Positions 3,480 to 61,166 of a stretch of DNA of 64,000 bases are shown here, in pieces. The DNA is taken from positions 16,025-80,024 of the IMG/VR virus record IMGVR_UViG_3300013212_000061. The stretch is one strand, 5' to 3'. Numbering within the stretch: the first letter of the stretch is position 1; each line of letters begins with the position of its first letter. Position numbers and translations under genes: made by a program. The stretch comes from a virus. Under the pieces are notes generated by a model, which was given only the letters and a program-made list of their open reading frames with translations, did not search any database and had not been told where the DNA came from.

Positions 3480-3490
3480 GATATATAAAT
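3480..3490 (+). promoter_or_regulatory. T4-like late promoter (GATATATAAAT)
   Basis: The box lies 20 bases upstream of the ATG at 3511, immediately after the nrdA terminator. It matches the motif repeated before virion genes here and resembles T4 late TATAAATA. Confidence 0.7.
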
Positions 3491-3510: not shown

Positions 3511-4593
3511 ATGATTCCAATCAAGCTTTTCGAAGAATTCTTATACGAAGAAAATCTTAAAAACAAATACGCTAAGAAAGTGGCATGGATTATGAAGTCT
3601 CATGATATTCATGCAACTTCAGGCGATGTTAATGGCCGCGAAAAGAAATACAATATCGCCGCTAAAGGTAACCTATTCTTAAACTATGCAACCAAAGAGG
3701 ACTTTAAAGATGATGCAGTTGTAGTACCTGGAAATGTTCCAATACTTAATTATGGAGGAGCAGTAGACCCGGAGGCTATTGGATTCTTAAAGAATAAAGG
3801 AATCAACAATGATAATCTATACAACAAAAGAGAATTACTTCCACTATCAGGAGACAAGATAAAATTTGCTAAAGCAGCCGCAAAATTTGATTGGCTTCCA
3901 AAAACAGTTTTTACAAAAGAGGATGCCATTAAAGGAGACGTTGGTTTCCCGGTAATTGCAAAAATAAAAGATGGACACAGTGGAGTTGGAATTCAAAGGT
4001 TTGACACCGCCAAAGAATTAGAAGAGAGCAAAGATACATTCGATATCTTTTGTCAATTTATAGATTTTGCAAGAGAATATAGAGTAATGTTTTGTAGAGA
4101 CAAGATATTTGTTATCAACGAAAGAGTACCTAGAATTGAGGACGACCGTTCAATCAAAACTAAAACTGCCGATGAAAAAATCAGTTTTACTTATGTTTAT
4201 CAAGACAGAAAGAAAGTTGACCCTGAATTTATTGAAAATGTGTTATCAATTTGCAAAGACGTTAAAACATTCTTAGACCTAGACTTATGGGCCCTAGATA
4301 TTGTAGTAGATAAAAAGGGTAAAATGTGGATTATGGAAACATCATCTGCTACCGGACTTGGAAGTGTTAAAATGTGCGAAGTTTATAAGGCAATGTATGA
4401 AGATTTTTACGGAGAAGCAATAGATGACGAATTCTTAGAGGACATTTACCTAAAATACGTAGTTCCTGGACATCAAAATTATTACCCAAAATTTAAAAAA
4501 GAAATCGATTCATCACAATGGCCGATGGATTACAAAATATTGACTGATCCGAAAGCAAAAGATGGATATAGATATTTTTTTAATTTAGATTAA
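3511..4593 (+). CDS. ATP-grasp ligase-like enzyme with capsid-targeting-type leader
   Basis: A 360-aa enzyme of the ATP-grasp superfamily, which joins a carboxylate to an amine or thiol through an acyl-phosphate. Seen: a central segment GFPVIAKIKDGHSGVGI (Lys plus Gly-rich loop binding ATP), then ALDIVVDKKGKMWIMET, matching the D...E metal-binding strand of the fold. Substrate is unknown. The N-terminus MIPIKLFEEFLYEE matches the leader of seven other proteins here and includes L-Y-E, a plausible prohead protease site. The ATG at 3511 is preferred over the in-frame TTG at 3505 because the leader begins there. The dehydrogenase gene starts two bases after it, so the two probably work in one pathway. 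Its late promoter and leader suggest packaging in the head; that is inference. Confidence 0.8.
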   Translation: MIPIKLFEEFLYEENLKNKYAKKVAWIMKSHDIHATSGDVNGREKKYNIAAKGNLFLNYATKEDFKDDAVVVPGNVPILNYGGAVDPEAIGFLKNKGINNDNLYNKRELLPLSGDKIKFAKAAAKFDWLPKTVFTKEDAIKGDVGFPVIAKIKDGHSGVGIQRFDTAKELEESKDTFDIFCQFIDFAREYRVMFCRDKIFVINERVPRIEDDRSIKTKTADEKISFTYVYQDRKKVDPEFIENVLSICKDVKTFLDLDLWALDIVVDKKGKMWIMETSSATGLGSVKMCEVYKAMYEDFYGEAIDDEFLEDIYLKYVVPGHQNYYPKFKKEIDSSQWPMDYKILTDPKAKDGYRYFFNLD

Positions 4594-4594
4594 T

Positions 4595-5653
4595 ATGAAA
4601 ACAGGAATATTTAAAACATCGCTAAAGGAAAACGAAAAACGAATTCCAATCCACCCAGCCCATATTGAAAGGCTATCCGGAGAAATAATTAAAGAACTCT
4701 TATTTGAAGAGGGATATGGAGATGACTATGGCTATTCAGACTCTCAACTCGAACAAATGGGTTGCAAGTTTGCCAGTCGTGCGGATCTTTTTAAAGAGTG
4801 CAACATAATTATATTACCAAAACCACTCGCTGAAGACCTAAAACAAATACAGGATGGTGCAACTCTATGCGGTTGGACCCATGCAGTTCAACAGAGGGAC
4901 ATTACAGACATTGCTATCGAAAAAGGGTTAACACTTATTGCTTGGGAAGAGATGAACAGTGTTTCCAAAAACCAAAAGTTGCATACATTCTATCGGAACA
5001 ATGAACTTGCTGGATACGCTGGCGTTATACATTACCTACAATTAGCAGGTCTTGATGGACACTATGGAGACCGTAAGAAGGTTGTTATTTTTGGATTTGG
5101 TTCTGTAAGTAAAGGAGCAATCTATGCCCTACAGGGTAGAGGTTTTAATAACATTACCGTTTATACTCAAAGACCTACACACTTAGTTGCCGACAAAAAT
5201 CCTGACGTCTGGTACAAAAACTTTAATGACGATGACGTTTGGGAAGACATGTATTCTGCCAATATTATATTTAATGGAGTCTTACAGGATGTAAATAATC
5301 CACTAATGTTTATTAAAGATTTGAATCAATTGGATCAACTACGCAGAAACTGCGCAATTATCGATATCAGTTGTGACAGGGGAATGGGATTCTTTTTTGC
5401 AGAACCTACATCATTTGAAAATCCAATTATAAAATTAAGAAGAGGGATACAGTACTATTCAGTCGATCATACTCCAACATACTTATGGAATGCAGCATCT
5501 AGAGAAATCTCTGCCGCGCTTGTACCTTACTTAGATACTATAATAGAACCTCAAAAATGGAAAGACAATCCAGTTATTAATGCTTCTATCGATATTGCAT
5601 GTGGAACTATTATTAATCAAAACATAAACAAATTTCAAAAAAGGAATATATAA
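4595..5653 (+). CDS. Alanine dehydrogenase / carboxyethyl-ornithine synthase-like NAD(P) dehydrogenase
   Basis: A 352-aa oxidoreductase of the AlaDH/PNT N-terminal superfamily. The start (KTSLKENEKRIPIHPAHI) and the FEEGYGDDYG and ILPKP segments are typical of alanine dehydrogenase, saccharopine dehydrogenase and N5-(carboxyethyl)ornithine synthase. A Rossmann dinucleotide loop, VVIFGFGSVSKGA, lies near residues 165-177. It likely performs reductive amination or the reverse on an amino-acid substrate; which one cannot be read from sequence. It sits directly behind the ATP-grasp gene and has no leader itself. A dehydrogenase-ligase pair is unusual between replication genes and suggests synthesis or consumption of a small amino-acid derivative. 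Confidence 0.75.
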   Translation: MKTGIFKTSLKENEKRIPIHPAHIERLSGEIIKELLFEEGYGDDYGYSDSQLEQMGCKFASRADLFKECNIIILPKPLAEDLKQIQDGATLCGWTHAVQQRDITDIAIEKGLTLIAWEEMNSVSKNQKLHTFYRNNELAGYAGVIHYLQLAGLDGHYGDRKKVVIFGFGSVSKGAIYALQGRGFNNITVYTQRPTHLVADKNPDVWYKNFNDDDVWEDMYSANIIFNGVLQDVNNPLMFIKDLNQLDQLRRNCAIIDISCDRGMGFFFAEPTSFENPIIKLRRGIQYYSVDHTPTYLWNAASREISAALVPYLDTIIEPQKWKDNPVINASIDIACGTIINQNINKFQKRNI

Positions 5654-5676: not shown

Positions 5677-6120
5677 ATAAAACACATTAAACTATACGAA
5701 GAATTTGTAAACGAAGACTTAGGAATAATTGACATTGCATTAGGAGCCGCAGTTGGAGTTGCAGGTCTATTGGCATTAGTTCAAGGTTTACCGGTAGTAG
5801 GTAGGGTTCTTGGAGATGCTGCTGAAGCATTAGCAAATAGGACTGAAGCAAAAGCTAAGCAAGCAGCAAAAGGTAAAAGAAAAGAATTAATTGGAGAAAT
5901 CATTAAGAAATTTGAAGGAGATACAAAACTTAAACAAATGTATCAAGACTTGCCTGAGTATGGCGCAATGGGAAGTAGTCAAAAAACACTTAAAGCCAAT
6001 AGTGAAAGAAGAAACCAATTAACAACAATCGGAAATTATATTAAATCTAAACTAACACAAGAGGAAATGGAATACTTTACCGATATTTCTTCTATGCTAA
6101 GAACTGGAGACGTAAGATAA
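5677..6120 (+). CDS. Small internal-type protein with capsid-targeting-like leader and apparent ATA start
   Basis: Reading from 5677 gives (I/M)KHIKLYEEFVNEDLGIIDIALG, which matches the leader on other proteins here (MKHIKLFEEF-x-N-E). The expected ATG is ATA. An in-frame stop at 5665 excludes an upstream start, and the next conventional candidate (TTG 5770) would drop the leader. After the leader comes a hydrophobic Ala/Gly segment (IDIALGAAVGVAGLLALV) that may be membrane-active, then a basic, Lys-rich helical region. Function is unknown. V-N-E at leader residues 11-13 fits the likely protease site. Either AUA initiates here or a point mutation has damaged the start. Confidence 0.6.
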   Translation: MKHIKLYEEFVNEDLGIIDIALGAAVGVAGLLALVQGLPVVGRVLGDAAEALANRTEAKAKQAAKGKRKELIGEIIKKFEGDTKLKQMYQDLPEYGAMGSSQKTLKANSERRNQLTTIGNYIKSKLTQEEMEYFTDISSMLRTGDVR

Positions 6121-14523: not shown

Positions 14524-14533
14524 GATATATAAT
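14524..14533 (+). promoter_or_regulatory. Late-type box GATATATAAT touching the next start codon
   Basis: A perfect copy of the late motif ends only two bases before the ATG at 14536. If initiation were 6-7 bases downstream as in T4, the transcript would begin at or just after the ATG. It may be functional with leaderless output, or vestigial. Confidence 0.5.
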
Positions 14534-22645: not shown

Positions 22646-23267
22646 GAAGAGAATAGCCGAGTTAAGCAAAGAATTTGGAGGTAAAATAAGAGCCTCTCGA
22701 GCATGTATGGATTGGTATGAGGCTGGAATTAAATCTAAAAGTGTAGCTGAGGCTAAACTAACCCGATCGCGCTTTCAACCTGGAAAGATTTATGTTTTTA
22801 AATACGATCCAAAATATGCAAAAAAACTTCCATGGTTTGATGCAAATCCAGTAGTATTAGCCATTGAACAAGTTAATAATAATGACCTTGGAATTAATTT
22901 AAACCTGCTACCAGTTCCTTATAAAGAGAAATTGTTGGATGAGTTATTTACCCGTATGAATATAAAAGTAGATGTACAAGAAACAAACATAATTTCAGAA
23001 ATTCTTGGAATTGAAACACCGAGTGGAATTGATGCACTTAAAGAAAAACCTCTCCGGATAACTTATGCAGGAATTAAAGCATACCTTGAAAAAGATGGAT
23101 ATGATTTTGCCATAAGACAATATATACCTTCAAGAAAGAGTAACCAAGCAGTTGTTAGTTATTCAAAATGGCCAGAAATAGCACTATGTGATTTTATGGA
23201 TTTTAACAAAACAAATGTAATGAAGGTCAGATTAATGTTTAATGACTATTTAAAAAAGAATATATAA
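22632..23267 (+). CDS. Conserved T4-superfamily morphogenesis protein, unassigned
   Basis: 211 aa. The stretch FQPGKIYVFKYDPKYAKKLP-WFDANPVVLAIE followed by GINLNLLP and KLLDELF is a signature I associate with a conserved protein of T4-like phages, but I cannot give it a certain gene number. It lies between gp4 and portal, where T4 has gp2, gp53 and gp5 nearby. A DNA-end-protector or baseplate role is possible and unproven. Confidence 0.55.
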   Translation: MGYIKKRIAELSKEFGGKIRASRACMDWYEAGIKSKSVAEAKLTRSRFQPGKIYVFKYDPKYAKKLPWFDANPVVLAIEQVNNNDLGINLNLLPVPYKEKLLDELFTRMNIKVDVQETNIISEILGIETPSGIDALKEKPLRITYAGIKAYLEKDGYDFAIRQYIPSRKSNQAVVSYSKWPEIALCDFMDFNKTNVMKVRLMFNDYLKKNI

Positions 23268-23289: not shown

Positions 23290-24888
23290 ATGGCAGGATT
23301 TGTACAAAGAAATGGTCCATTGACTAAACAACCATTCAACTTAAGTAGCACCCTTAAGAAGTTATCTTCTTTCGGTATGTACTATGATGATTTGGTGCTT
23401 AGACAATCTCAAGCAATCGGACCGGTAGAAGATGCAATTGGTTACGGTCAAATGAACCCAACAGGTCTCGATAGCGATGATATGTATGGAGCATTTGCAG
23501 CCCTTTCGATGGCTGATACTACAATGCGTAAAAATATTCCATTTTTTGACCAAGCATATCGTGGTAAAAGAGATGAACTTAGAGCATTTGCACAGCATGA
23601 CGAAATTGAAGACATCTTAGATATACTCTGTGATGAGTCAATTGTATATGATAGCAAAAACTTCATGGCCAATCCAGAGATTATCGGTATGGAAGTTTCT
23701 GAAGATGTGCAGAAATATCTTAATAAAGCATATAGAGACCTCTATCAATATTTTGGATTCAATCTAGACCAATCAGCTTGGTACTTCTATAGAAAATGGT
23801 TAATTGATGGTTACCTATCGTTTGAGATTATTTATAATCCTGAAATGTCGGAAGTTATTGGATTTAAAGAAATTGATCCAATCACATTGGTCCCAGGATA
23901 TAACCATGAAGATGGTAAAAAAGTTTGGATTCAGTTTAAAGACGATCCAGTTAAACAGAGAAAATTGTATGATTCACAGATTGTGTACATATCATACTCT
24001 TCAATTACTACAGCATCAAGGGTTTCTTACCTTGAGCGACTTGTAAGAGCATTCAACTTAATGAGAATTATGGAACATACCAGAGTTATTTGGGCTGTGA
24101 CAAATTCATCTTATAGAATGAAATTTATTATACCAGTTGGTGGTAAATCTAAAACCAGAGCAAAACAATCCCTTGCTCAATTAATGAATAACTATAAAGA
24201 AGTTGTAGATTTTGATTGGGACAGTGCATCTCTTACAACTAATGGTAAACCAATGTTACAATTTAACAAAGAATATTGGTTACCTAGCAAGGACGGAGAA
24301 CAACCTGAAATTGAAACCTTAGGTGGAGAAGGTCCAGAATTAAGCGACACTGAATCATTAAAATACTTCTCAGATAAACTTAAAGCAGTTTCAAAAATTC
24401 CTTACAATAGATTCATGTATGAAGATGGTGGAGGAGATTTCAATCTAGCTGCCGATGGTATGATTAGAGATGAGATTAAATTCAGCAAATTTATTAATCG
24501 TTTACGTAGTTCATTCCAAGAGATATTGATTAAACCCTTATGGATTCAAATGTGTCTTAAATTTCCAGAATTTAAGGAGGATGCAGGATTTAGAACCCAA
24601 ATTGCACTCCGATTTAATGAGGATAATATGTTCTCTGAATTAAAGACAATGGAAATCATGCAAAAGAGACTTGATTTTATTACTACAATGAAAGATTCAC
24701 TGGTTAAAACAGATCCAATGACAATGGAAGAAACTCCATATTTTGACATGGACTTCTTAGTTGATAGATACCTTAAATTAAGTCCAGATGATAAAGCAGC
24801 TAATGATGCATATAAAGCCCGAACTGCTGCTGCCAAAGCTGCCGAACCAGAAGTAGAGGATCCAATGGGCTTAGGAATGGGAATGTAA
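23290..24888 (+). CDS. 20: Portal protein (gp20)
   Basis: Dodecameric vertex protein through which DNA is packaged and released. 532 aa against 524 in T4. Conserved features include ILDILCDESIV near residue 100, the WYFYRKWLIDGYLSFEIIYN core, IDPITLVPGY, and the C-terminal clip/crown region (KIPYNRFMYEDGGGDFN ... ISRDE-type KFSKFINRLR). It ends in a Met/Gly-rich tail. First gene of the head operon that continues with a core protein, protease-scaffold and capsid. Confidence 0.93.
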   Translation: MAGFVQRNGPLTKQPFNLSSTLKKLSSFGMYYDDLVLRQSQAIGPVEDAIGYGQMNPTGLDSDDMYGAFAALSMADTTMRKNIPFFDQAYRGKRDELRAFAQHDEIEDILDILCDESIVYDSKNFMANPEIIGMEVSEDVQKYLNKAYRDLYQYFGFNLDQSAWYFYRKWLIDGYLSFEIIYNPEMSEVIGFKEIDPITLVPGYNHEDGKKVWIQFKDDPVKQRKLYDSQIVYISYSSITTASRVSYLERLVRAFNLMRIMEHTRVIWAVTNSSYRMKFIIPVGGKSKTRAKQSLAQLMNNYKEVVDFDWDSASLTTNGKPMLQFNKEYWLPSKDGEQPEIETLGGEGPELSDTESLKYFSDKLKAVSKIPYNRFMYEDGGGDFNLAADGMIRDEIKFSKFINRLRSSFQEILIKPLWIQMCLKFPEFKEDAGFRTQIALRFNEDNMFSELKTMEIMQKRLDFITTMKDSLVKTDPMTMEETPYFDMDFLVDRYLKLSPDDKAANDAYKARTAAAKAAEPEVEDPMGLGMGM

Positions 24889-24909: not shown

Positions 24910-25251
24910 ATGAAAATAATTAAAACATTTGAGGAATTTACAAGTTCACTTCAAGAAGATGCAATTGATGCAGGAGAAGATTCAAAAGTAGTAATTGATG
25001 ATGTCACACTTGACTCAGGAAAAGAAATTAAATCTACTGAAATTTTAGGGACTATTCTGTCTTCAAAAAGTGAAAAAGAATTTAAAGAATATTTCTACAG
25101 TGAATATGGAAATACTGCATTTACCGAAGAGGATATGTTTACTCTAGTTAAATTTTATAGCGATTATCAAGAAGAAACTGCTCAAAAAGAAAAGGATGCT
25201 GAAAAAGATGCAGAAGGTGGCGAAGAAAAAGATCCACTAGCCGATCTATAA
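24910..25251 (+). CDS. Prohead core protein candidate with leader (gp67/68 position)
   Basis: 113 aa, very acidic, starting MKIIKTFEEFTSSLQEDA, a variant of the shared leader with L-Q-E as a possible protease site. It sits between portal and protease genes, where T4 has gp67 and gp68, small prohead core proteins degraded by gp21. The remainder is helical with a Lys/Glu/Asp-rich tail. Role as scaffold core protein is inferred from position, charge and leader. Confidence 0.6.
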   Translation: MKIIKTFEEFTSSLQEDAIDAGEDSKVVIDDVTLDSGKEIKSTEILGTILSSKSEKEFKEYFYSEYGNTAFTEEDMFTLVKFYSDYQEETAQKEKDAEKDAEGGEEKDPLADL

Positions 25252-25288: not shown

Positions 25289-25298
25289 GATATATAAT
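25289..25298 (+). promoter_or_regulatory. T4-like late promoter (GATATATAAT)
   Basis: Consensus box 24 bases before the protease-scaffold ATG. Confidence 0.75.
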
Positions 25299-25321: not shown

Positions 25322-27241
25322 ATGACTAATAACTTACTGATCTTAGAAAGATCGTCAACGGAATTAGAGTTTAAACAAGATGGTGGAACCTATGTTCTAG
25401 AGGGTATCTTTGGAGAAATCGATAAGAAAAATCGTAATAACCGAATCTATACTGAATCTGAATACTTACCACAGATTGAAGCTCTACAGGCAAAAATTAA
25501 ATCATCAAAGTTACTAGGTGAATTAGATCACCCACAAACATTTGATGTTTCCTTAAAAAATGTGTCACACATTATTGAAGAGCTTACTTATGATACCAAT
25601 ACAAAGCAAGTTAAAGGACGTATTAGACTATTAGATACTGATGCTGGAAGACAGGCAAAAGCCCTTGTAGACGCTGGTGTTCCCCTACAAATTTCAAGTA
25701 GAGCAGCTGGTGCAGTTGAATCTAATGGAACTGTAAAAATCAAACAATTGTTTACTTATGATTTAGTTGCAGACCCTGGGTTTGAAAATGCTGAATTGAA
25801 AAGAGTTAATGAATCTTATGGATTTGTTAATGAAGGAAACGACCTATTTATTTACGAGATAAATAATACAAATGAAAAACAATCAATCGAAAATATAAAC
25901 GAAACAAAAATGGCAGAGTCTAAATTTATTACGACTGAGGATTTTAATAAGTACTCTAAATATCTTTCTGAAGAAATCAAATCTATTAAAGAAAGTATGA
26001 ATTCTTTAACAGAATCAGAGTCTACTAGTTCTCAATTAGAAACACTTAAAGAATACACTGATTATTTAGCTAAGAAATTAGATGAATCAATCGCATATTC
26101 AGAACACATTGCTGAAAAAGCAGACCAAGGTATTCAATACTCAGAAAATCTTGCAGAGAAAGTTGACCAAGGTATTCAATATTCTGAGCATATCGCTGAA
26201 AGCGTTGATGCTATTAAAAACTACACTAACTATTTAGCTGAATCTTATAATGAAGGTTCTACTTCTTACGATAACTTAATTAAATATACTGAATATTTAA
26301 GAGAAAACTTAGAGAAAGTAACTGAATATGCAGAATACGTTGCAGAAACTGTTAACACTAACCTATTATTAGAAGACGAAGCAGGTTTACCAGCTGAAGA
26401 CCTTAAAGATGAAACAGAAGATGTTTCTCCAGATGTAGTAGATGCTGATGGTAACGTAATCACTGGAAAACCAGAAGATGTAGAAGGTGAATTAGACCTT
26501 AAAGGAGTAGACGGTGCCGGTAAAGAAGTTACTGAAGCAAATGATGGAACTGAAGCAGGTTTACCAGCTGAAGACATTAAAAAAGCTACTAAAGATGTTA
26601 CAGTAGATGTAGTTGATGCTGATGGTAATGTAATCACTGGAAAACCAGAAGATGTAGAAAAAGACTTAGAACTTGCTGGTAAAGGAGACGCTGCTGGTAA
26701 ACAAGTTGACCAGATGGAGGCTTACAAAAATTCAATCACTTCTAAATTAGAAGCTATTGTTGAAAAAGTAAATGCTAAAAAATCAGAAAATCCAGCATTC
26801 TTTAAATTTATCTCTGAAGAGAAAGTAAATGAATTTAATGCATTATCTACTGAAGAAAAATCTAAAGTTGTAACTGCTGTTGAAGGTCGCGGTTACCTTA
26901 CTGAAGGACAAATATTAGCCCTATGGAACACTTCATTATCAGGAGTTGTAGAAACTAATAATGCTCCTACAGTTATTAAATTAATGCCAACTGAATACCA
27001 TGATACTTGGGCTAAATGTTCTGAAGGTAAGAAAAATCAAATCATAGCACAATCTAAATATCACAAACTAGAAACACCTTACCAAGTTGCAAACTTCTGG
27101 CAAACTAGAGACCTTAGAGAGGTTGCTCCAGTAATGGAAAAAATTGCTATGGTAAATGAATCTACTGTTGAAGAAGTTAAAACTTTAGGTTATGATGCAT
27201 CTGAATTAGGAGCTGAAATTGCAAAAAGATTTAGAAAATAA
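25322..27241 (+). CDS. 21: Prohead protease-scaffold fusion (gp21 + gp22-like)
   Basis: Residues 1-175 are a T4 gp21-type prohead protease: GIFGEIDKKNRNNRIYTESE, LLGELDHP with the candidate catalytic His, VSHIIEEL, and ISSRAAGAV with the serine nucleophile region, ending LVADPGFENAEL. From residue 197 onward it is a helical, acidic scaffold-like protein with near-repeats of x-Y-S-E-x-I/L-A-E-K and a duplicated V-V-D-A-D-G-N-V-I-T-G-K-P-E-D-V-E block. I-N-E just before M197 is a likely self-cleavage site. T4 encodes gp21 and gp22 separately, so one gene here supplies both. The fusion is seen in sequence; cleavage is inferred. Confidence 0.88.
   Translation: MTNNLLILERSSTELEFKQDGGTYVLEGIFGEIDKKNRNNRIYTESEYLPQIEALQAKIKSSKLLGELDHPQTFDVSLKNVSHIIEELTYDTNTKQVKGRIRLLDTDAGRQAKALVDAGVPLQISSRAAGAVESNGTVKIKQLFTYDLVADPGFENAELKRVNESYGFVNEGNDLFIYEINNTNEKQSIENINETKMAESKFITTEDFNKYSKYLSEEIKSIKESMNSLTESESTSSQLETLKEYTDYLAKKLDESIAYSEHIAEKADQGIQYSENLAEKVDQGIQYSEHIAESVDAIKNYTNYLAESYNEGSTSYDNLIKYTEYLRENLEKVTEYAEYVAETVNTNLLLEDEAGLPAEDLKDETEDVSPDVVDADGNVITGKPEDVEGELDLKGVDGAGKEVTEANDGTEAGLPAEDIKKATKDVTVDVVDADGNVITGKPEDVEKDLELAGKGDAAGKQVDQMEAYKNSITSKLEAIVEKVNAKKSENPAFFKFISEEKVNEFNALSTEEKSKVVTAVEGRGYLTEGQILALWNTSLSGVVETNNAPTVIKLMPTEYHDTWAKCSEGKKNQIIAQSKYHKLETPYQVANFWQTRDLREVAPVMEKIAMVNESTVEEVKTLGYDASELGAEIAKRFRK
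25910..27241 (+). other. Possible internal start for free scaffold protein
   Basis: An in-frame ATG at 25910 (MAESKFITTEDF) sits in an A-rich context (GAAACAAAAATG) like other start sites here, exactly at the protease-scaffold junction. Internal initiation would make a 443-aa scaffold in excess over protease, as lambda does with Nu3 inside C. Confidence 0.5.
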
Positions 27242-27402: not shown

Positions 27403-28905
27403 ATGGCAAATTTAATTAATGAAGCAGAAATCAGAGCAACGTGGGCTCCGATTATCGAATCTGCGACAGGTATCAACGATGCAAGCAAATTAGCTTGGAT
27501 GTCAGAATACTGTCACAACCACAAATTATACGAAGATGCTTCTCAAATGAGCTTAGGTACTGCTGGTAACATCTTTGGTATGGGTGCTACAACTTTACCT
27601 GGTAATACATTCTCAAATGGTATGTCTACTACTAAAGGTTCTGGTGATAAAGCTCCTTCTTTACTTCCTTTAGCAATGCAAGTTGCTGCTCAAACTATCG
27701 GTCTTGACTTAGTACCAGTAGTTCCTATGGCTGGTCCAATGGGATTATTGTCTTACTTAGACTTCGTTTACGAAGGTGGTAAATTAGGTGGAACTGTTGC
27801 TCCAACTTACATTAAAGCTAACCCAGTTGCTGGTGTTATTGATATCGCTGCTGCTACTTCTGGTACTCCAGCTGTTGCAATCTCAGCTGCATATACTTTC
27901 ATTGGAAAATCTCGTATCGATGGTTATTCAATCTTCAAAGTAGTTGGTGCACCTGTTGCTGCTAACGTTGCTGCGGATTTATTAATCGCAGTAAATGCTG
28001 TATTATCTCCTGATACTACTGCTACAATCTTAGATGTACAATTAGTAAAAGCTTTAGAGGATCACGTTAAAGGATTCGCTGCTTCTACTGCTACTGGTAC
28101 TCCATTCTCAAGAGAAGCTGGAGAACAAACTCCAGATAAAATCATGGGATTATCTTTATTCTCTAAAAGCGTTACAGCTGAAACTTTCCAAGTTGCTGCT
28201 GCCGTTACAAGAGAACAAGTTCAAGATTTAAAACAATTCGGAGTTGATGCTGTTGCTCAAGTTGAAGCTGTTTTAACTAATGAATTAACTCAAGGTATTA
28301 ACCAATACATCTTAGGAAGAATCAGAACATTAGGTGCTCTTAACGTTACTAGAGCGTTCAGTTCTAATGCATTTGACTTAAGCTTACCTACTGCTGCATC
28401 TTTATCAGGTGGAGAAACTTTACCTTCTGTTCACAGAAGAATTCTTTCTCAAATCTTAGCTTCTGCTAACTTGATCGCTAACAGAGGTAGAAGAGGTGCT
28501 GGTAACTTCGCAGTATGTGGACCACAAACTGCTACAGTTTTACAATCAATTGCTGGTTTCGTTGCAAACCCAATGGCAAATACTTTCGCACAAGCTGCTG
28601 GAGCTATCTACCCATTAGGATCTGTTGCTGGAATTAACATTTATACTGACCCTACAATGGACTGGTTTGATTATTCAATCGCAGTTGGTAGAAAAGGAGA
28701 CGGAAACGGACCTGGTATCGTATTCATGCCTTACTTAATGGCTGAATCAGTTCAAGCAATTGCTGAAGGAACTATGGCTCCTAAAGTAGCTGTTAAATCT
28801 AGATTCGCTCTAGTTGATGCAGGATTCCACCCTGAAACTCAATACGTTGAGTTTAACGTAACTGTTGCAGGTAGTGCTACAGCTAACTTATTAACATTAG
28901 CTTAA
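27403..28905 (+). CDS. 23: Major capsid protein (gp23)
   Basis: 500 aa with HK97-type fold, T4 gp23 family (521 aa). The start EAEIRATWAPIIE parallels T4 AELLNKWKPLLE, followed by the region with KLYE at residues 43-46, a candidate gp21 site for removing the prohead delta domain; LINE at residues 4-7 also fits the cleavage pattern. Later features include VAAAVTREQVQDLKQFGVDA, the RRILSQILASANLIANRGRRGAGNF core and AGINIYTDP. Codon choice is markedly more uniform than in neighbours, as expected for the most expressed gene. Own late promoter and strong terminator. Confidence 0.95.
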   Translation: MANLINEAEIRATWAPIIESATGINDASKLAWMSEYCHNHKLYEDASQMSLGTAGNIFGMGATTLPGNTFSNGMSTTKGSGDKAPSLLPLAMQVAAQTIGLDLVPVVPMAGPMGLLSYLDFVYEGGKLGGTVAPTYIKANPVAGVIDIAAATSGTPAVAISAAYTFIGKSRIDGYSIFKVVGAPVAANVAADLLIAVNAVLSPDTTATILDVQLVKALEDHVKGFAASTATGTPFSREAGEQTPDKIMGLSLFSKSVTAETFQVAAAVTREQVQDLKQFGVDAVAQVEAVLTNELTQGINQYILGRIRTLGALNVTRAFSSNAFDLSLPTAASLSGGETLPSVHRRILSQILASANLIANRGRRGAGNFAVCGPQTATVLQSIAGFVANPMANTFAQAAGAIYPLGSVAGINIYTDPTMDWFDYSIAVGRKGDGNGPGIVFMPYLMAESVQAIAEGTMAPKVAVKSRFALVDAGFHPETQYVEFNVTVAGSATANLLTLA

Positions 28906-48465: not shown

Positions 48466-49056
48466 ATGAAGAAAATTAAACTATATGAACAATTTATAGA
48501 AGAGAGAAGCGGAGAGCTTTTTAATCCTAAGAAAAACAAACCAGTCATATTAAAACCGACTAAAGATACAGAATTAGAAAAGGAATTCTTTAATCTTATT
48601 AGTACAGCGTACTCTGAGATTGGAGGACATATCAAGGTCCAATCACCTAGTGATGTATTTAAAGACCCTGATTGGAACTATTGGGAAGGAATAGATATTC
48701 ACGGTAGTAATGATTTTGATGTTATCATGTTTGGTGAAAAAACCCGATTTGGACTTAAATTCTCAGGAGTTGGTCATGATGGAACCAAAGATGCTAAGAG
48801 AGACTATATGGATAGAAGAGGAAAGGAATTAAAACAACTTGGATATTACATAGAAGTTTCTGGTAAAATTGCAGAAATCTTAATCAATAAGTATCAAGTA
48901 CCTATTGTAACTGACCAAGAAACGGTAGAAAAGGTACTGGGTAAAAAAGTTGATTGGATTGGAAATCTAGATGGTGGAACTGGAGGAGGTTGGTATAGCC
49001 GAACTATTGGTGGAGGAGCTCATGAAAAGATAATGTTAGGTAAACCAAAGGTATAA
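48466..49056 (+). CDS. Leader-bearing protein of a widespread phage family
   Basis: 196 aa. Starts MKKIKLYEQFIEERSG: the shared leader with I-E-E as protease site. The mature part (FFNLISTAYSEIGGHIKV, DPDWNYWEGIDIHG, FGLKFSGVGHDGTKDAKRDY, ELKQLGYYIEVSG) recalls a phage family sometimes predicted to have an acetyltransferase-like fold; I cannot confirm activity. It has an early promoter, which is unusual for a virion protein, so it may act both early and after packaging. Confidence 0.6.
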   Translation: MKKIKLYEQFIEERSGELFNPKKNKPVILKPTKDTELEKEFFNLISTAYSEIGGHIKVQSPSDVFKDPDWNYWEGIDIHGSNDFDVIMFGEKTRFGLKFSGVGHDGTKDAKRDYMDRRGKELKQLGYYIEVSGKIAEILINKYQVPIVTDQETVEKVLGKKVDWIGNLDGGTGGGWYSRTIGGGAHEKIMLGKPKV

Positions 49057-49057
49057 T

Positions 49058-49573
49058 ATGAAAGCACTATTTTTACACGGTCTTGAAAGTAAACCCAAAA
49101 ACCAAAAGTCAGAGTTTTTAGCAAAGTTTGATGCCCAATGTCCCGCGATGGACTATAAAAATCCTGGTCTATTTAATGAAATCTTGACAAAGATTCAGAA
49201 TGACAGACCAGAAGTTTTAATTGGAAGTTCTATGGGAGGATGGTTTGCATATTGTCTTTCAACAATCACTGGAATACCAACAATTCTTTTTAATCCAGCA
49301 GTTCATAGTCGTTCAATAGAACCCGTTGTTCAAATTGGAAGTATGCAAGCAAATCATACTGTCATTCTCGGTAGAAAAGACGACTTAATTAACCCTGAAG
49401 AGACACTTGAATGGATTAAAAAAAATCCAGGACATTTCAAAGTCAACTTTGAAAACAATGGACATCAAACTCCAATAAACATATTTAAAAAATATGTCTT
49501 AAATTCTGGTTATCTTAACGAAATGCAAAGAATTAAAATGTTTGAGGAATTTAATAATTTAGATTTAACATAA
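49058..49573 (+). CDS. Alpha/beta hydrolase (YqiA-like esterase)
   Basis: 171 aa. LFLHGLESKPKNQKS start, nucleophile elbow GSSMGGWFA with Ser, Asp in LGRKDDLINP and His in NNGHQTPINIF complete the triad, as in the YqiA/UPF0227 esterases. The last 16 residues (MQRIKMFEEFNNLDLT) closely match the N-terminal leader of other proteins, here at the C-terminus. One base after the previous gene. Confidence 0.78.
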   Translation: MKALFLHGLESKPKNQKSEFLAKFDAQCPAMDYKNPGLFNEILTKIQNDRPEVLIGSSMGGWFAYCLSTITGIPTILFNPAVHSRSIEPVVQIGSMQANHTVILGRKDDLINPEETLEWIKKNPGHFKVNFENNGHQTPINIFKKYVLNSGYLNEMQRIKMFEEFNNLDLT

Positions 49574-57776: not shown

Positions 57777-57785
57777 ATATATAAT
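57776..57785 (+). promoter_or_regulatory. T4-like late promoter (GATATATAAT)
   Basis: Consensus box 20 bases before the first gene of the leader cluster. Confidence 0.75.
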
Positions 57786-57805: not shown

Positions 57806-58258
57806 ATGAAACATATTAAACTATTTGAAGAATTTACCGCAAATCAAATTAAATGTGATAAATGCGGTTGGAAATGGAGACTTGAAGACGGAGGTAACGA
57901 CGTTTTTTTATGCAAATGCGGACATGATAACACTCCAGAATTTGTACAAGAGGCAGAGAAAAAAGAGATGGACAAAGGTCCACTAGATAACGCCGGAATT
58001 AATAAGGCGCTTGATAAAAAAGCAAAAGCATCTGGAGTTCCAATAGGAATTATTAGAGCAGTGATGCGAAGAGGAATGGGAGCTTGGAACAGCAGTCACA
58101 GGGCTGGAGTTCCACAAGAGGCTTGGGGATATGCCCGGGTTGGAGCTTTTTTAGAAAAAGGTGAAGGAACATGGCAAAAAGCAGATGCTGATTTGGCAAA
58201 AGAAGTTCGAGATGGAGGACATGACAAAAAACTACCATGGAAACCTAAAGAAGACTAA
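57806..58258 (+). CDS. Leader-bearing zinc-ribbon protein
   Basis: 150 aa. MKHIKLFEEFTANQ leader, then a zinc ribbon CDKCGWKW...CKCGHDN (residues about 17-41), then ALDKKAKASGVPIGIIRAVM and GAWNSSHRAGVPQEAWGYARV, a small helical domain found in many phage proteins. Late promoter and leader suggest packaging in the head. The zinc ribbon may bind nucleic acid. The canonical L-x-E site is less obvious here. Confidence 0.65.
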   Translation: MKHIKLFEEFTANQIKCDKCGWKWRLEDGGNDVFLCKCGHDNTPEFVQEAEKKEMDKGPLDNAGINKALDKKAKASGVPIGIIRAVMRRGMGAWNSSHRAGVPQEAWGYARVGAFLEKGEGTWQKADADLAKEVRDGGHDKKLPWKPKED

Positions 58259-58266
58259 AGCAATAT

Positions 58267-58389
58267 AGAGACTTACTTAATGTTTCATAAGATTTGTCGT
58301 TACTTCTTTAAAATAAAGGTAAGTCTCTTATTTTTATTTAGATATATAATATAACGACAAATCTAAATAAATTTTAATCTTATGAAACA
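58267..58389 (+). promoter_or_regulatory. Hairpin element able to sequester the HNH gene start
   Basis: A 10-bp stem (58267-58276 with 58319-58328) acts as a terminator-like hairpin. Its loop base-pairs downstream in nested fashion: 58290-58302 with 58352-58364 (13 bases) and 58281-58291 with 58379-58389 (11 bases, including the ATG at 58382). A late promoter (GATATATAAT, 58341-58350) lies between, so late transcripts lack the inhibitory strand. Confidence 0.7.
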
Positions 58390-58909
58390 CAAGCACCACA
58401 TCATACCAAAGCATATGGGAGGTACTAATGACCCTGAAAATATTATTGAATTAACTATTGAAGAGCACGCCAAAGCGCATCAATTACTATGGGAAGAACA
58501 TGGTAAGAGAGAAGATTGGCTAGCATATCACGGATTATCTAAGTTAATTGGTAAAGAAGAACTTTTAAAAGAAGTACTTTCAATGGCCGGAAAAAAAGGA
58601 GGAAGCAATGGTAAAGGAGTTACTGGCAATAGAAAAAACGGAGCAATCGCAAATTGGGAAAAAAATAAAGATTTAATTCTTAAAACACTTTATGAAAATG
58701 GTAAAATGTATGGACATTTAGGTGGAGCGCCTAAAGACAAATGGATATGGATAAATAATAATAAAGAAGCTAAAAAAGTGTTAAAATCTGATGCAATACC
58801 ATTTGGCTGGAAAAGAGGAAGACTACCATTATCCAATGAAACCAAAGAAAAATTAAAAGAAAGTTGTAAAGGTATTAATACAGGTACTAAAAGAACTAAT
58901 AAAGATTAA
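58382..58909 (+). CDS. HNH homing endonuclease
   Basis: 175 aa. HHIIPKHMGGTNDPENIIEL followed by EEHAKAHQLLW is a classic HNH fold. C-terminal part has basic DNA-binding repeats ending GRLPLSNETKEKLKESCKG. Free-standing mobile gene wedged between two leader-bearing genes; one base before the next ATG. Regulated by the element above. Confidence 0.88.
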   Translation: MKHKHHIIPKHMGGTNDPENIIELTIEEHAKAHQLLWEEHGKREDWLAYHGLSKLIGKEELLKEVLSMAGKKGGSNGKGVTGNRKNGAIANWEKNKDLILKTLYENGKMYGHLGGAPKDKWIWINNNKEAKKVLKSDAIPFGWKRGRLPLSNETKEKLKESCKGINTGTKRTNKD

Positions 58910-58910
58910 C

Positions 58911-59294
58911 ATGAAACATATAAAACTTTTTGAGGAATTCTTGAACGAAGCTGAAGAGACCTATAATGACTATCCAGCAGCCGCAAAGGAGAATGCAAAG
59001 AAGGCACTGGATTGGAGAGACCAATACGGTCGAGATATTGTAACTGCAGGTACTCCAGTTGGATGGCAGCGGGCTAATCAATTGGCAAAAGGTGAAAAAC
59101 TTTCTGCTGATGTTGTTTCCCGAATGGCACAATTTAATCGACACCGAAAAAACTCAAAGATATCTCCAGAACACAAATCAGAACCATGGAAAGACAATGG
59201 ATATTTAAGTTTTTTGTTATGGGGCGGTAAAGAAGGCGTTGATTGGGCTATAGAAAAAATGAAGGAAATACGAAAAAAAGAAGGTGATAGATAG
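58911..59294 (+). CDS. Leader-bearing small protein, possible host of a homing gene
   Basis: 127 aa. MKHIKLFEEFLNEAEE has the best leader with L-N-E then A, an ideal prohead-protease site. The rest (AGTPVGWQRANQLAKGEKLS, RMAQFNRHRK, YLSFLLWGGKEGVDWAIEKM) is a domain I know from many phage proteins of unknown function. Its last 20 codons are echoed at the end of the homing gene downstream, see findings. Confidence 0.65.
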   Translation: MKHIKLFEEFLNEAEETYNDYPAAAKENAKKALDWRDQYGRDIVTAGTPVGWQRANQLAKGEKLSADVVSRMAQFNRHRKNSKISPEHKSEPWKDNGYLSFLLWGGKEGVDWAIEKMKEIRKKEGDR

Positions 59295-59320
59295 ATTTTG
59301 AATATATTACTTGGATTCTT

Positions 59321-59332
59321 TAGATATATACT
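59321..59332 (+). promoter_or_regulatory. Late-like box before third endonuclease (TAGATATATACT)
   Basis: Only 3 bases before the ATG at 59335; imperfect copy. Confidence 0.35.
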
Positions 59333-59334
59333 AT

Positions 59335-60189
59335 ATGGCAAAATGTAAAATATGTAAAGAAGAAGACCAAAGTAAATCAAAGTCTTTTAGATGTGAAAAA
59401 TGTACTGAAGCATCTTTAAAATGTGAAGGTTGTGGAAACAAGAAATCGAAATCAACTTATCGTTTTTGTAGAAATTGTATAGGATCTGATTTAACATATA
59501 GGAATAATTTAAGTGCATCTTTGAAAGGAAAGACTTCTTGGGCTAAAGGATTAACTAAAGAAACAAATAATTCTATTAAAAGAAGTTCTGAATCTAAAAA
59601 AGGTGTATTATTATCAGATTCTCATAAAGCAAAAATATCTAGTAGTATGACTGGAAAACATGCAGGTGCTAAAAATCCTTTTTATGGAAAAACACACACT
59701 GATGAATTAAAAGTCAAATGGTCTGCTGAAAGATCCGGAAAATCAATTCATACCGACGAGACAAAAGAAAGAATGAGAAATAAAATGCTAGAAAGATATG
59801 AAAATGGTGAAATTCAAAAATCACCAAAATCTAACTGGTATGAATTTCAAGGACTTAAGTGTCAAGGAAGAACTGAATTAAAATGGGTAGAAAGAAACTT
59901 TGATAGAATAATTAATAGTCGAATTTACATAAGTACACCACATGGAACCTATATTGGAGATTTTGAAACTAATGATTCATTAATAGAAGTTAAATCATTT
60001 TACACATTTAGCGTAATTAGTCAAAATCAACTTGATAAAATAATGTGGATAGACAAAAATATTAAAAAGATTATTTTTGCAGTTAAAAAAGATAATAAAT
60101 TCTATGAATTTAGTTATAACAACGAAGGAGTTGATTGGGCTATGAAAAAAATGGACGAAATAAAAAAAGAAAATAATGAAAAAATTTAA
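59335..60189 (+). CDS. NUMOD3 homing endonuclease with zinc-finger N-terminus and Vsr-like nuclease
   Basis: 284 aa. Cys-rich start (CKICKEE, FRCEKCTEA, CEGCGNKK, CRNCIG), then NUMOD3-type repeats (AKNPFYGKTHTDELKVKWS, HTDETKERMRNKM), then an EDxHD/Vsr-like nuclease region (WYEFQGLKCQGRTELKWVE ... GTYIGDFETNDSLIEVKSF). Its last 20 residues resemble the end of the 58911 protein (EGVDWAMKKMDEIKK). Overlaps the next gene by 14 bases. ATG 59335 preferred over TTG 59311. Confidence 0.82.
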   Translation: MAKCKICKEEDQSKSKSFRCEKCTEASLKCEGCGNKKSKSTYRFCRNCIGSDLTYRNNLSASLKGKTSWAKGLTKETNNSIKRSSESKKGVLLSDSHKAKISSSMTGKHAGAKNPFYGKTHTDELKVKWSAERSGKSIHTDETKERMRNKMLERYENGEIQKSPKSNWYEFQGLKCQGRTELKWVERNFDRIINSRIYISTPHGTYIGDFETNDSLIEVKSFYTFSVISQNQLDKIMWIDKNIKKIIFAVKKDNKFYEFSYNNEGVDWAMKKMDEIKKENNEKI

Positions 60190-60622
60190 ACTATTTGAAG
60201 AATTTAAAAATTCTACAGCTTGTCCAGTTCCAACTAGAGACCTTGAAGTTAATACTAAAAACAGAGACCGTGCAATTAAGGCAGATCACATTGAATATGG
60301 TCCCTTAAATGTTGATGAACCTGCTGGATTTTGGGAACATATTGCAGACCACTGGAATACCAGTGTAGAAGCTGCAAAGAAATCATTATGTGCAAACTGT
60401 GCTGCATTTGATGTTTCACCAAGAATGAAAGAATGTATGCCCGGAGAATTAAGCGACCCGGACGGTGAATTAGGATATTGTTGGATGCACCAGTTTAAAT
60501 GTCATTCTGCAAGAACATGTTATACATGGGCAAAAGGTGGACCAATATCAACTGACAAAATCTCATATGATTGGCAAGATAAAAATCAAGATGCCGCGAT
60601 GAATAAAAATCCTATAAAATAA
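60176..60622 (+). CDS. Leader-bearing Cys-rich protein
   Basis: 148 aa. MKKFKLFEEFKNSTACPVPT leader, then an eight-Cys domain (SLCANCAAFDV, MKECMPGE, GYCWMHQFKCHSARTCYTW), likely metal-binding; similar sequences occur in other phages without known role. Lies inside the leader cluster. No perfect L-x-E here. Confidence 0.62.
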   Translation: MKKFKLFEEFKNSTACPVPTRDLEVNTKNRDRAIKADHIEYGPLNVDEPAGFWEHIADHWNTSVEAAKKSLCANCAAFDVSPRMKECMPGELSDPDGELGYCWMHQFKCHSARTCYTWAKGGPISTDKISYDWQDKNQDAAMNKNPIK

Positions 60623-60623
60623 T

Positions 60624-61166
60624 ATGAAAAGAATTAAATTATTTGAAGAGTTCTTGAATGAAAAGGAGAATGTAACGCATGATTTTAATTGTGCAATGTT
60701 ATACTTTGACTTTCCAGCAATGGCAACCTTACATCAATCAATAAGACCTGAAGATATTTTCACAGTAGAAGCTGATGAAAGTTACGGTCTTGAAGACGAA
60801 CCACACTGTACCCTCCTATACGGACTTCATCCAGAAGTAACCGTTGATCAGGTTGCAGATAAACTAAAAGGGATCCAATTTGGAGAATGTAAAGCCTACA
60901 ACCTTTCTCTTTTTGAAAATGATAAATATGATGTCTTGAAATTTGACATGGAAGGTGATAATCTTCATAATGCAAATAAGGCACTTAGCGAACTTCCATA
61001 TACTACGGACTATCCGGATTATATGCCCCACATGACTGTTGCGTATTTAAAACCTGGCAAAGGTTCTGAGTATTTGAAAATATTAAATTCGCAAGAGCAT
61101 TCACTAAAACCACTGCATATTACTTACAGTATGACAGATGGCTCTAAACAAAAAATAGATTTATAA
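60624..61166 (+). CDS. Leader-bearing 2H phosphoesterase
   Basis: 180 aa. MKRIKLFEEFLNEKEN leader with L-N-E. The body has two H-x-T motifs, PHCTLLYG (H61, T63) and PHMTVAYLKPG (H136, T138), that define the 2H superfamily (LigT, CPDase, T4 Acb1). Such enzymes hydrolyse cyclic or 2',5' phosphodiesters. If packaged, it could destroy host cyclic-nucleotide alarm signals on entry or tidy RNA ends for the phage ligase. Activity is inferred. Confidence 0.82.
   Translation: MKRIKLFEEFLNEKENVTHDFNCAMLYFDFPAMATLHQSIRPEDIFTVEADESYGLEDEPHCTLLYGLHPEVTVDQVADKLKGIQFGECKAYNLSLFENDKYDVLKFDMEGDNLHNANKALSELPYTTDYPDYMPHMTVAYLKPGKGSEYLKILNSQEHSLKPLHITYSMTDGSKQKIDL

Follow-up and report, generated by a model that had tools for sequence, protein, structure and literature searches.

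We analyzed a 64,000-nucleotide stretch of virus DNA (hereafter the window), which comprises bases 16025-80024 of the IMG/VR virus contig IMGVR_UViG_3300013212_000061 (80,024 bases in total), and found that eight of its genes start with variants of one short leader, MK-x-I-K-L-[FY]-E-[EQ]-F. The sequence evidence that this leader is a capsid-targeting sequence (CTS) of the kind found on the internal proteins (IPs) of phage T4 is strong. We consider it very likely that the tagged proteins are packaged into the prohead, that most of them are trimmed by an S77 protease after the glutamate at residue 13 (E13), and that they are ejected with the DNA.

A shared leader on unrelated proteins

The first-pass annotation had reported the leader on eight genes, and it was indeed present at all eight starts, one of which (5677) opens with ATA and not with ATG. 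The reported set was too small, as the part of the contig upstream of the window (L002) holds a further four tagged genes plus an orphan leader open reading frame (ORF). The tagged genes are as follows (a slash marks a predicted cut).

3511..4593, plus strand: MIPIKLFEEFLYE/E..., ATP-grasp-like body (R2K clade)
5677..6120, plus strand: IKHIKLYEEFVNE/D..., body without an assigned family
24910..25251, plus strand: leader on an acidic 113-residue protein, predicted prohead core protein (T4 gp67/68 position)
48466..49056, plus strand: MKKIKLYEQFIEE/R..., conserved body without an assigned function
57806..58258, plus strand: leader protein with zinc ribbon and DUF5824 (6e-9)
58911..59294, plus strand: MKHIKLFEEFLNE/A..., domain that other phages carry as a fusion to head proteins
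60176..60622, plus strand: leader on a Cys-rich protein (leader-bearing homologue in L009)
60624..61166, plus strand: MKRIKLFEEFLNE/K..., 2H phosphoesterase, Acb1-like
L002, 604: MKHINLFEDFLNE
L002, 879: MKTKILNFNQFITE
L002, 4144: MNFNEFLNE
L002, 5687: MKHIKLFKQFVNE

At the DNA level, a degenerate pattern for MKxIK-x-[FY]E[EQ]F matched the window nine times at up to two mismatches and matched none of 100 shuffles; at the same tolerance the whole 80-kb contig gave 12 matches, and the reversed pattern gave none. Directly behind the pattern, residues 11-13 read [LIV]-x-E in five of the eight window proteins (LYE in 3511, VNE in 5677, IEE in 48466, and LNE in both 58911 and 60624). Within the window, two leaders can be separated by as many as five synonymous codon changes in a ten-residue span, and the leader of 48466 is kept in all seven aligned orthologues (the structure model of this protein, with a predicted local distance difference test score (pLDDT) of 42.5, was unusable). 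In the cluster at 57806-61166, the untagged genes 58382 and 59335 resemble homing endonucleases (HNH, NUMOD3), and the other four genes are tagged.

Conservation of the leader across virus sequences

Scanning IMG/VR with a pattern that ended at residue 10 returned at least 118 stretches, whose proteins, together with those of the window, formed 76 clusters unrelated beyond residue 15. Among the matches listed, positions 11-13, which the search pattern left free, were [ILVMF]-x-E in 51 of the 76 clusters (67%) against a background of 1.9% (binomial tail about 1e-68, with clusters treated as independent). Glu occupied position 13 in 74% of the clusters among these matches, where column entropy was 1.55 bits at position 13 and 3.4-4.0 bits thereafter, meaning that conservation ends at E13. 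A chance origin of the leader was rejected on the basis of this enrichment and the empty shuffled and reversed-pattern controls. In the same 76 clusters, among the matches listed, conserved leader residues were encoded by varying synonymous codons, and therefore the conserved entity is the peptide. The remainder of each protein is unrelated, as claimed earlier, and the leader is conserved as protein.

Among bacterial and archaeal genomes (84,980 in GTDB) the exact pattern occurred only five times. In LR756500, 29 of the 622 ORFs carry MKYIxEYEEF(L)xE-type tags, some contigs hold 25-26 pattern matches, and related genomes carry up to about 25-30 leader genes. Unbiased counts of N-terminal words showed that the dominant tag differs among the window's contig, LR756500, LR756502, and PAU; such lineage-specific variants would be expected if tag and core co-evolve. 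The same type of count, on N-terminal k-mers, gave no lineage-wide tag in T4, where tagged genes are too few, or in PTm1, of which only 160 kb was searched. PAU carries a differently worded tag, MK[ST][LI]..LYE.KLNE, on at least six proteins, and gp142 and gp154, which its depositors annotated as internal capsid proteins, start MK[ST][LI]..LYE.KLNE/A. A literature search, with most subscription journals outside its coverage, found no description of a tag like this for phages of Bacteroidota or for huge or jumbo phages, and no virion mass spectrometry was found for the PAU-like phage MA9V-1.

Two further patterns were seen in this survey. Long ORFs in L095, L093, L116, L109, and L013 start with the tag MNFNQFLNE and carry a second tag-like segment, MKTKFIYESFxEF...LNE, 320-510 residues on; this would fit a single precursor that is cleaved to give two cargo proteins. 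In Salicola phage SCTP-2 (L134, gp458-462), the 58911 homologue gp459 starts MKINDFTSTKLFEDE and its neighbours start with ...LLEN-type peptides, which are perhaps another dialect of the tag.

Match to the T4 capsid-targeting sequence

T4 IPIII needs no more than its initial 10 residues, of which positions 4 and 7 serve targeting and positions 8 and 10 serve processing, and gp21 cleaves after L/I-x-E (PMC9026906). The N-terminus of T4 IPII and IPIII is MKTYQEFIAE/A, and its Tyr4, Phe7, Ile8, and Glu10 correspond, at identical spacing, to F7 (F/Y), F10, [LIV]11, and E13 of the leader, such that MKT-Y-QE-F-I-A-E/A and the window's F-EE-F-L-N-E/A align without gaps from Tyr onward. As in a T4-type CTS, the leader is an extreme N-terminal peptide on unrelated proteins, its aromatic residue and Phe are three residues apart, and L/I-x-E directly follows the targeting Phe. 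A motif derived from the T4 positions matched only IPII and IPIII in T4 itself, and at N-termini it matched 8 of 92 ORFs in the window's contig (0.9 expected), 23 of 622 in LR756500 (1.7 expected), and 25 of 919 in LR756502 (4.4 expected). The resemblance to the T4 CTS proposed at first pass was thus upheld by the determinant spacing, the enriched [ILV]-x-E, the end of conservation at that site, and the tagged gene at the core position (below).

Separately, the hypothetical 54-residue gp61.1 of T4 (gene 61.1, NC_000866 18966-19130) starts MKTFKEFIKED, close to the T4 CTS, and may be an overlooked internal protein.

Head genes, predicted protease sites, and putative late promoters

The window encodes a gp23-type capsid protein, a predicted S77 prohead protease-scaffold, portal, tail sheath, and tail tube, as well as a gp44-type clamp loader and further T4-type genes. 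No DNA-level relatives of the window were found among phage records. The host is probably a member of the Bacteroidota, because the closest capsid proteins are those of LR756500 (a 462-kb metagenomic phage, 52% identity), Lak megaphages, PAU, and Tenacibaculum phages. This is a large T4-type phage, most closely related to huge phages and to phages of Bacteroidota. The head genes and late-promoter-like sites that bear on the leader are listed here.

3481..3488, plus strand: ATATATAA, late-promoter-like, 30 nt before 3511
5646..5653, plus strand: ATATATAA, late-promoter-like, 31 nt before 5677
23260..23267, plus strand: ATATATAA, before the portal gene
23290..24888, plus strand: portal protein (PHROG 213, 1.6e-68)
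25290..25297, plus strand: ATATATAA, before the protease-scaffold gene
25322..27241, plus strand: predicted gp21-type (S77) prohead protease fused to scaffold (Pfam S77 1e-11; PHROG head maturation protease 2.5e-44)
27403..28905, plus strand: gp23-type major capsid protein (MCP), predicted cut LYE44/D (Pfam Gp23 1.5e-40; PAU alignment)
57777..57784, plus strand: ATATATAA, late-promoter-like, 29 nt before 57806 (cargo operon)

Gene 24910 sits between portal and protease, with the MCP gene next, which is the position of T4 genes 67/68. The gene at this position was a leader-bearing orthologue in ten of ten further contigs in addition to the window, most with F-I-x-E (e.g., MKIIKTFEDFITE, MRYVKLFEQFIKE, MKIKTFNQFITE, and MKHIKLFEEFVSE); the more distantly related LR756500 had no such gene call in that interval. 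We read the product of 24910 more readily as a component of the prohead core than as an effector that is injected. A leader-like start was also present on the gene directly 3' of the capsid gene in some of these phages. Gp23 is encoded by 18 of 25 large leader contigs when the curated cut-off is applied, and by 19 when the limit is E<=0.001.

The protease that the first-pass annotation had placed at 25322 is predicted from the Pfam (S77) and PHROG (head maturation protease) matches to be of the gp21 type, and its scaffold half and the MCP carry [LIV]-x-E. The scaffold half contains 27 such triplets versus 13.3 in shuffles, and none of 2000 shuffles reached 27. In PAU, the capsid protein starts out with 585 residues and, by N-terminal sequencing, is left with 520 (PMC5646251), and this loss of about 65 residues ends within one residue of LME64. 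The LME64 alignment column holds LYE44 in the window and LYE, INE, ILE, IYE, or LNE in relatives; the MCP of LR756501 has no [LIV]-x-E there. These sites point to a predicted gp21-type protease whose specificity would match the leader site in this phage.

The T4 late promoter is TATAAATA. A resembling sequence, ATATATAA, lies 29-32 bases before the portal, protease, and tail tube genes and before the tagged genes 3511, 5677, 57806, and L002:4144; it has 22 copies on the gene strand (e.g., at 14525, 20548, 28976, and 42923) and four on the opposite strand. Standing some 30 nt ahead of many late genes, it looks like the late promoter of this phage.

Proteins with and without the leader

The cargo named by the first-pass annotation (an ATP-grasp enzyme, a 2H phosphoesterase, a zinc ribbon, and a Cys-rich protein) was correctly identified throughout. 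The 60624 product has the two H-x-T motifs of the 2H fold (HCT at 61-63 and HMT at 136-138). Acb1 was its best Pfam family above the cut-off (2e-7) and its top match in a solved-structure profile search (E=0.011), and in a fold search (model pLDDT 75) Usb1, Burkholderia-phage Acb1, and FBB1 Acb1 scored about equally, with LigT and other 2H enzymes similar. The name Acb1-like is a fair one, after a 2H enzyme that counters the cyclic oligonucleotide-based antiphage signaling system (CBASS), but we do not label it a proven Acb1, because Usb1 and Acb1 folds match it about equally. The 3511 product gave weak Pfam matches to several ATP-grasp families, the best being R2K_2 (7e-5, below the cut-off). 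The 58911 domain forms part of an annotated prohead protease in halovirus HGTV-1, of an 816-residue ORF annotated as capsid protein and adjoining the portal gene in Roseobacter phage CRP-811, and of a MuF-type head protein in HRTV-28, and 2H domains have been reported fused to MuF or portal (Iyer et al., PMC5512222). At least two cargo domains therefore reach the head by another route elsewhere.

Tagged proteins in relatives include NMN (nicotinamide mononucleotide)-adenylyltransferase-like, leucine-rich repeat (LRR), ankyrin, and ligase-like (K-x-D-G, by eye) proteins. The tagged nucleotidyltransferases with GRFQPFHNGH (L069:6399-6992, L014 from 7917, and L116 from 11532) are the NMN-adenylyltransferase-like ones, and are possible counter-defence cargo related to nicotinamide adenine dinucleotide.

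The first-pass annotation had asked whether clearly cytoplasmic proteins also carry the leader; cytoplasmic and tail proteins were without it. The 73 tagged bodies matched 19 Pfam and 12 PHROGs families, none for replication, nucleotide synthesis, or tail, versus 32 Pfam and 70 PHROGs families (including primase, dUTPase, SSB, dCMP deaminase, and head closure) for 73 length-matched untagged genes from the same loci. Within the window, the tag is absent from the clamp loader, exonuclease, SbcC/D, glycosylase, guanylate kinase, RNA ligase, sheath, and tube. PADLOC returned four scattered single matches on the tagged proteins and no system.

Proposed mechanism and alternative explanations

We infer the following course from the genomic evidence. 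The tagged proteins would be made late in infection together with the head proteins, and the tag would bind the prohead core or scaffold so that the shell closes around them. The S77 protease (25322) would cut most of them after E13 ([LIV]-x-E/), and the trimmed cargo would remain in the head beside the DNA, be ejected into the next cell, and act there before phage gene expression. Delivery with the DNA would follow the T4 precedent. Roles in host takeover and counter-defence are likewise proposed for the cargo, the most specific being removal of CBASS signals by the Acb1-like protein.

Several observations weigh against this interpretation. In 24910 the [LIV]-x-E is displaced to residues 14-16 (LQE), and 57806 (TAN) and 60176 (KNS) have none at 11-13, such that cleavage at residue 13 is not predicted for the latter two. 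The leader is also three residues longer than the T4 CTS. A 21-residue ORF upstream of the window (L002 2170-2235, MKHIKLFEEFVEAELNESTIN) consists of tag and cut site with no body behind, and a leader-like copy (MQRIKMFEEFNNLDLT, window 49523-49570) stands at the C-terminal end of a UPF0227 (alpha/beta hydrolase-like) ORF (49058-49573), where it may be left over from a fusion or may act as a signal at that end. The PAU "internal capsid" labels are depositors' annotation of uncertain experimental footing. Overall, the first-pass proposal of prohead entry, trimming by the 25322 protease, and injection stands as a CTS reading that every computational test supported, except for 24910 as an injected effector and for a cut at residue 13 in 57806 and 60176.

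The tag might instead send to the prohead proteins that are mainly core or assembly parts, as suggested by 24910 and its orthologues, which lie among head genes and resemble core proteins, and by T4 IPIII, which also affects head assembly (PMC9026906). Most tagged bodies, however, are accessory and variable, the recognizable ones are enzyme-like or repeats (2H, ATP-grasp, nucleotidyltransferase, LRR, ankyrin), and a single phage can have up to 25-30 of them, which makes this explanation improbable. We regard it as very unlikely that the leader is an address unrelated to the head (phage replication compartment, membrane, or host protease adaptor): a short N-terminal helix is predicted for it, at low model confidence, but its spacing and cleavage site match the T4 CTS, and replication proteins of the same contigs lack it.

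The 5' segment could also be a DNA or RNA cassette (translation start or recombination seed) that moves with accessory genes and encodes a peptide without a targeting role. Accessory genes do get swapped, and T-even ip loci are polymorphic, but synonymous codons vary at the conserved residues, conservation runs in frame up to E13 and then ends, sequences upstream of the leaders differ, and a conserved core gene is tagged as well. We rejected this reading on the codon variation and find it scarcely credible.

Beyond this phage, we lean towards the packaging and ejection model applying to a widespread clade of large T4-type phages, in which tens of CTS-tagged proteins per genome would sit in every head and be delivered at time zero, with lineage-specific tags presumably matched to the core. 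Their enzymes for immune evasion and metabolism would include Acb1-like CBASS signal nuclease, NMN-adenylyltransferase-like, R2K ATP-grasp, and KxDG ligase-like proteins, alongside LRR and ankyrin proteins. If this is true, the tag alone would list, from genomes, the proteins that uncultured large phages inject before transcription, first-minute effectors that are otherwise hard to find, and counter-defence enzymes such as the Acb1-like nuclease would sit in the incoming particle. It would also provide phage research with a new cargo-loading tag and make tag-core co-evolution testable.

Comparison with known systems

We know of no report of Acb1 as a virion-packaged protein. The 60624 product shares with this anti-CBASS nuclease a 2H body with two H-x-T motifs, and Acb1 leads both its Pfam matches and its profile matches to solved structures, although identity is low and the model is of moderate confidence. 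Polyvalent proteins (Iyer et al., PMC5512222) contain conflict domains that are predicted to be injected, and include 2H fused to portal or MuF, but here mostly single domains each carry their own tag in place of one large multidomain protein. The ejection proteins of phiKZ/SPN3US-type giant phages (PMC5694885) are also numerous internal head proteins, several of them cut after Glu by a gp21-like protease; their propeptides are mostly >100 residues, with no single short shared tag. In P1, a short N-terminal segment sends the anti-restriction protein DarB to the head (PMC9024508), a likeness of description, in a single system without a separate scaffold.

The closest system is that of T4 IPI-IPIII and Alt (Mullaney and Black; PMC9026906), with which the leader proteins share the MK start, an aromatic residue, Phe three residues on, I/L next, and Glu before the cut, as well as an S77 protease, unrelated bodies, a gp67/68-position core gene between portal and protease, and counter-defence cargo, which is putative here (T4 Ip1-3 block GmrSD enzymes; PMC12373910). 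The system differs in that the leader has 13 residues, against 10 in T4, and includes a conserved I-K-L block; tagged genes number from a dozen to about 30 where T4 has a handful, with a variant of its own in each lineage; the cargo is enzymatic, unlike the T4 IPs; and the protease is fused to scaffold. The leader system is a much expanded variant of the T4 CTS and not a new kind of system.

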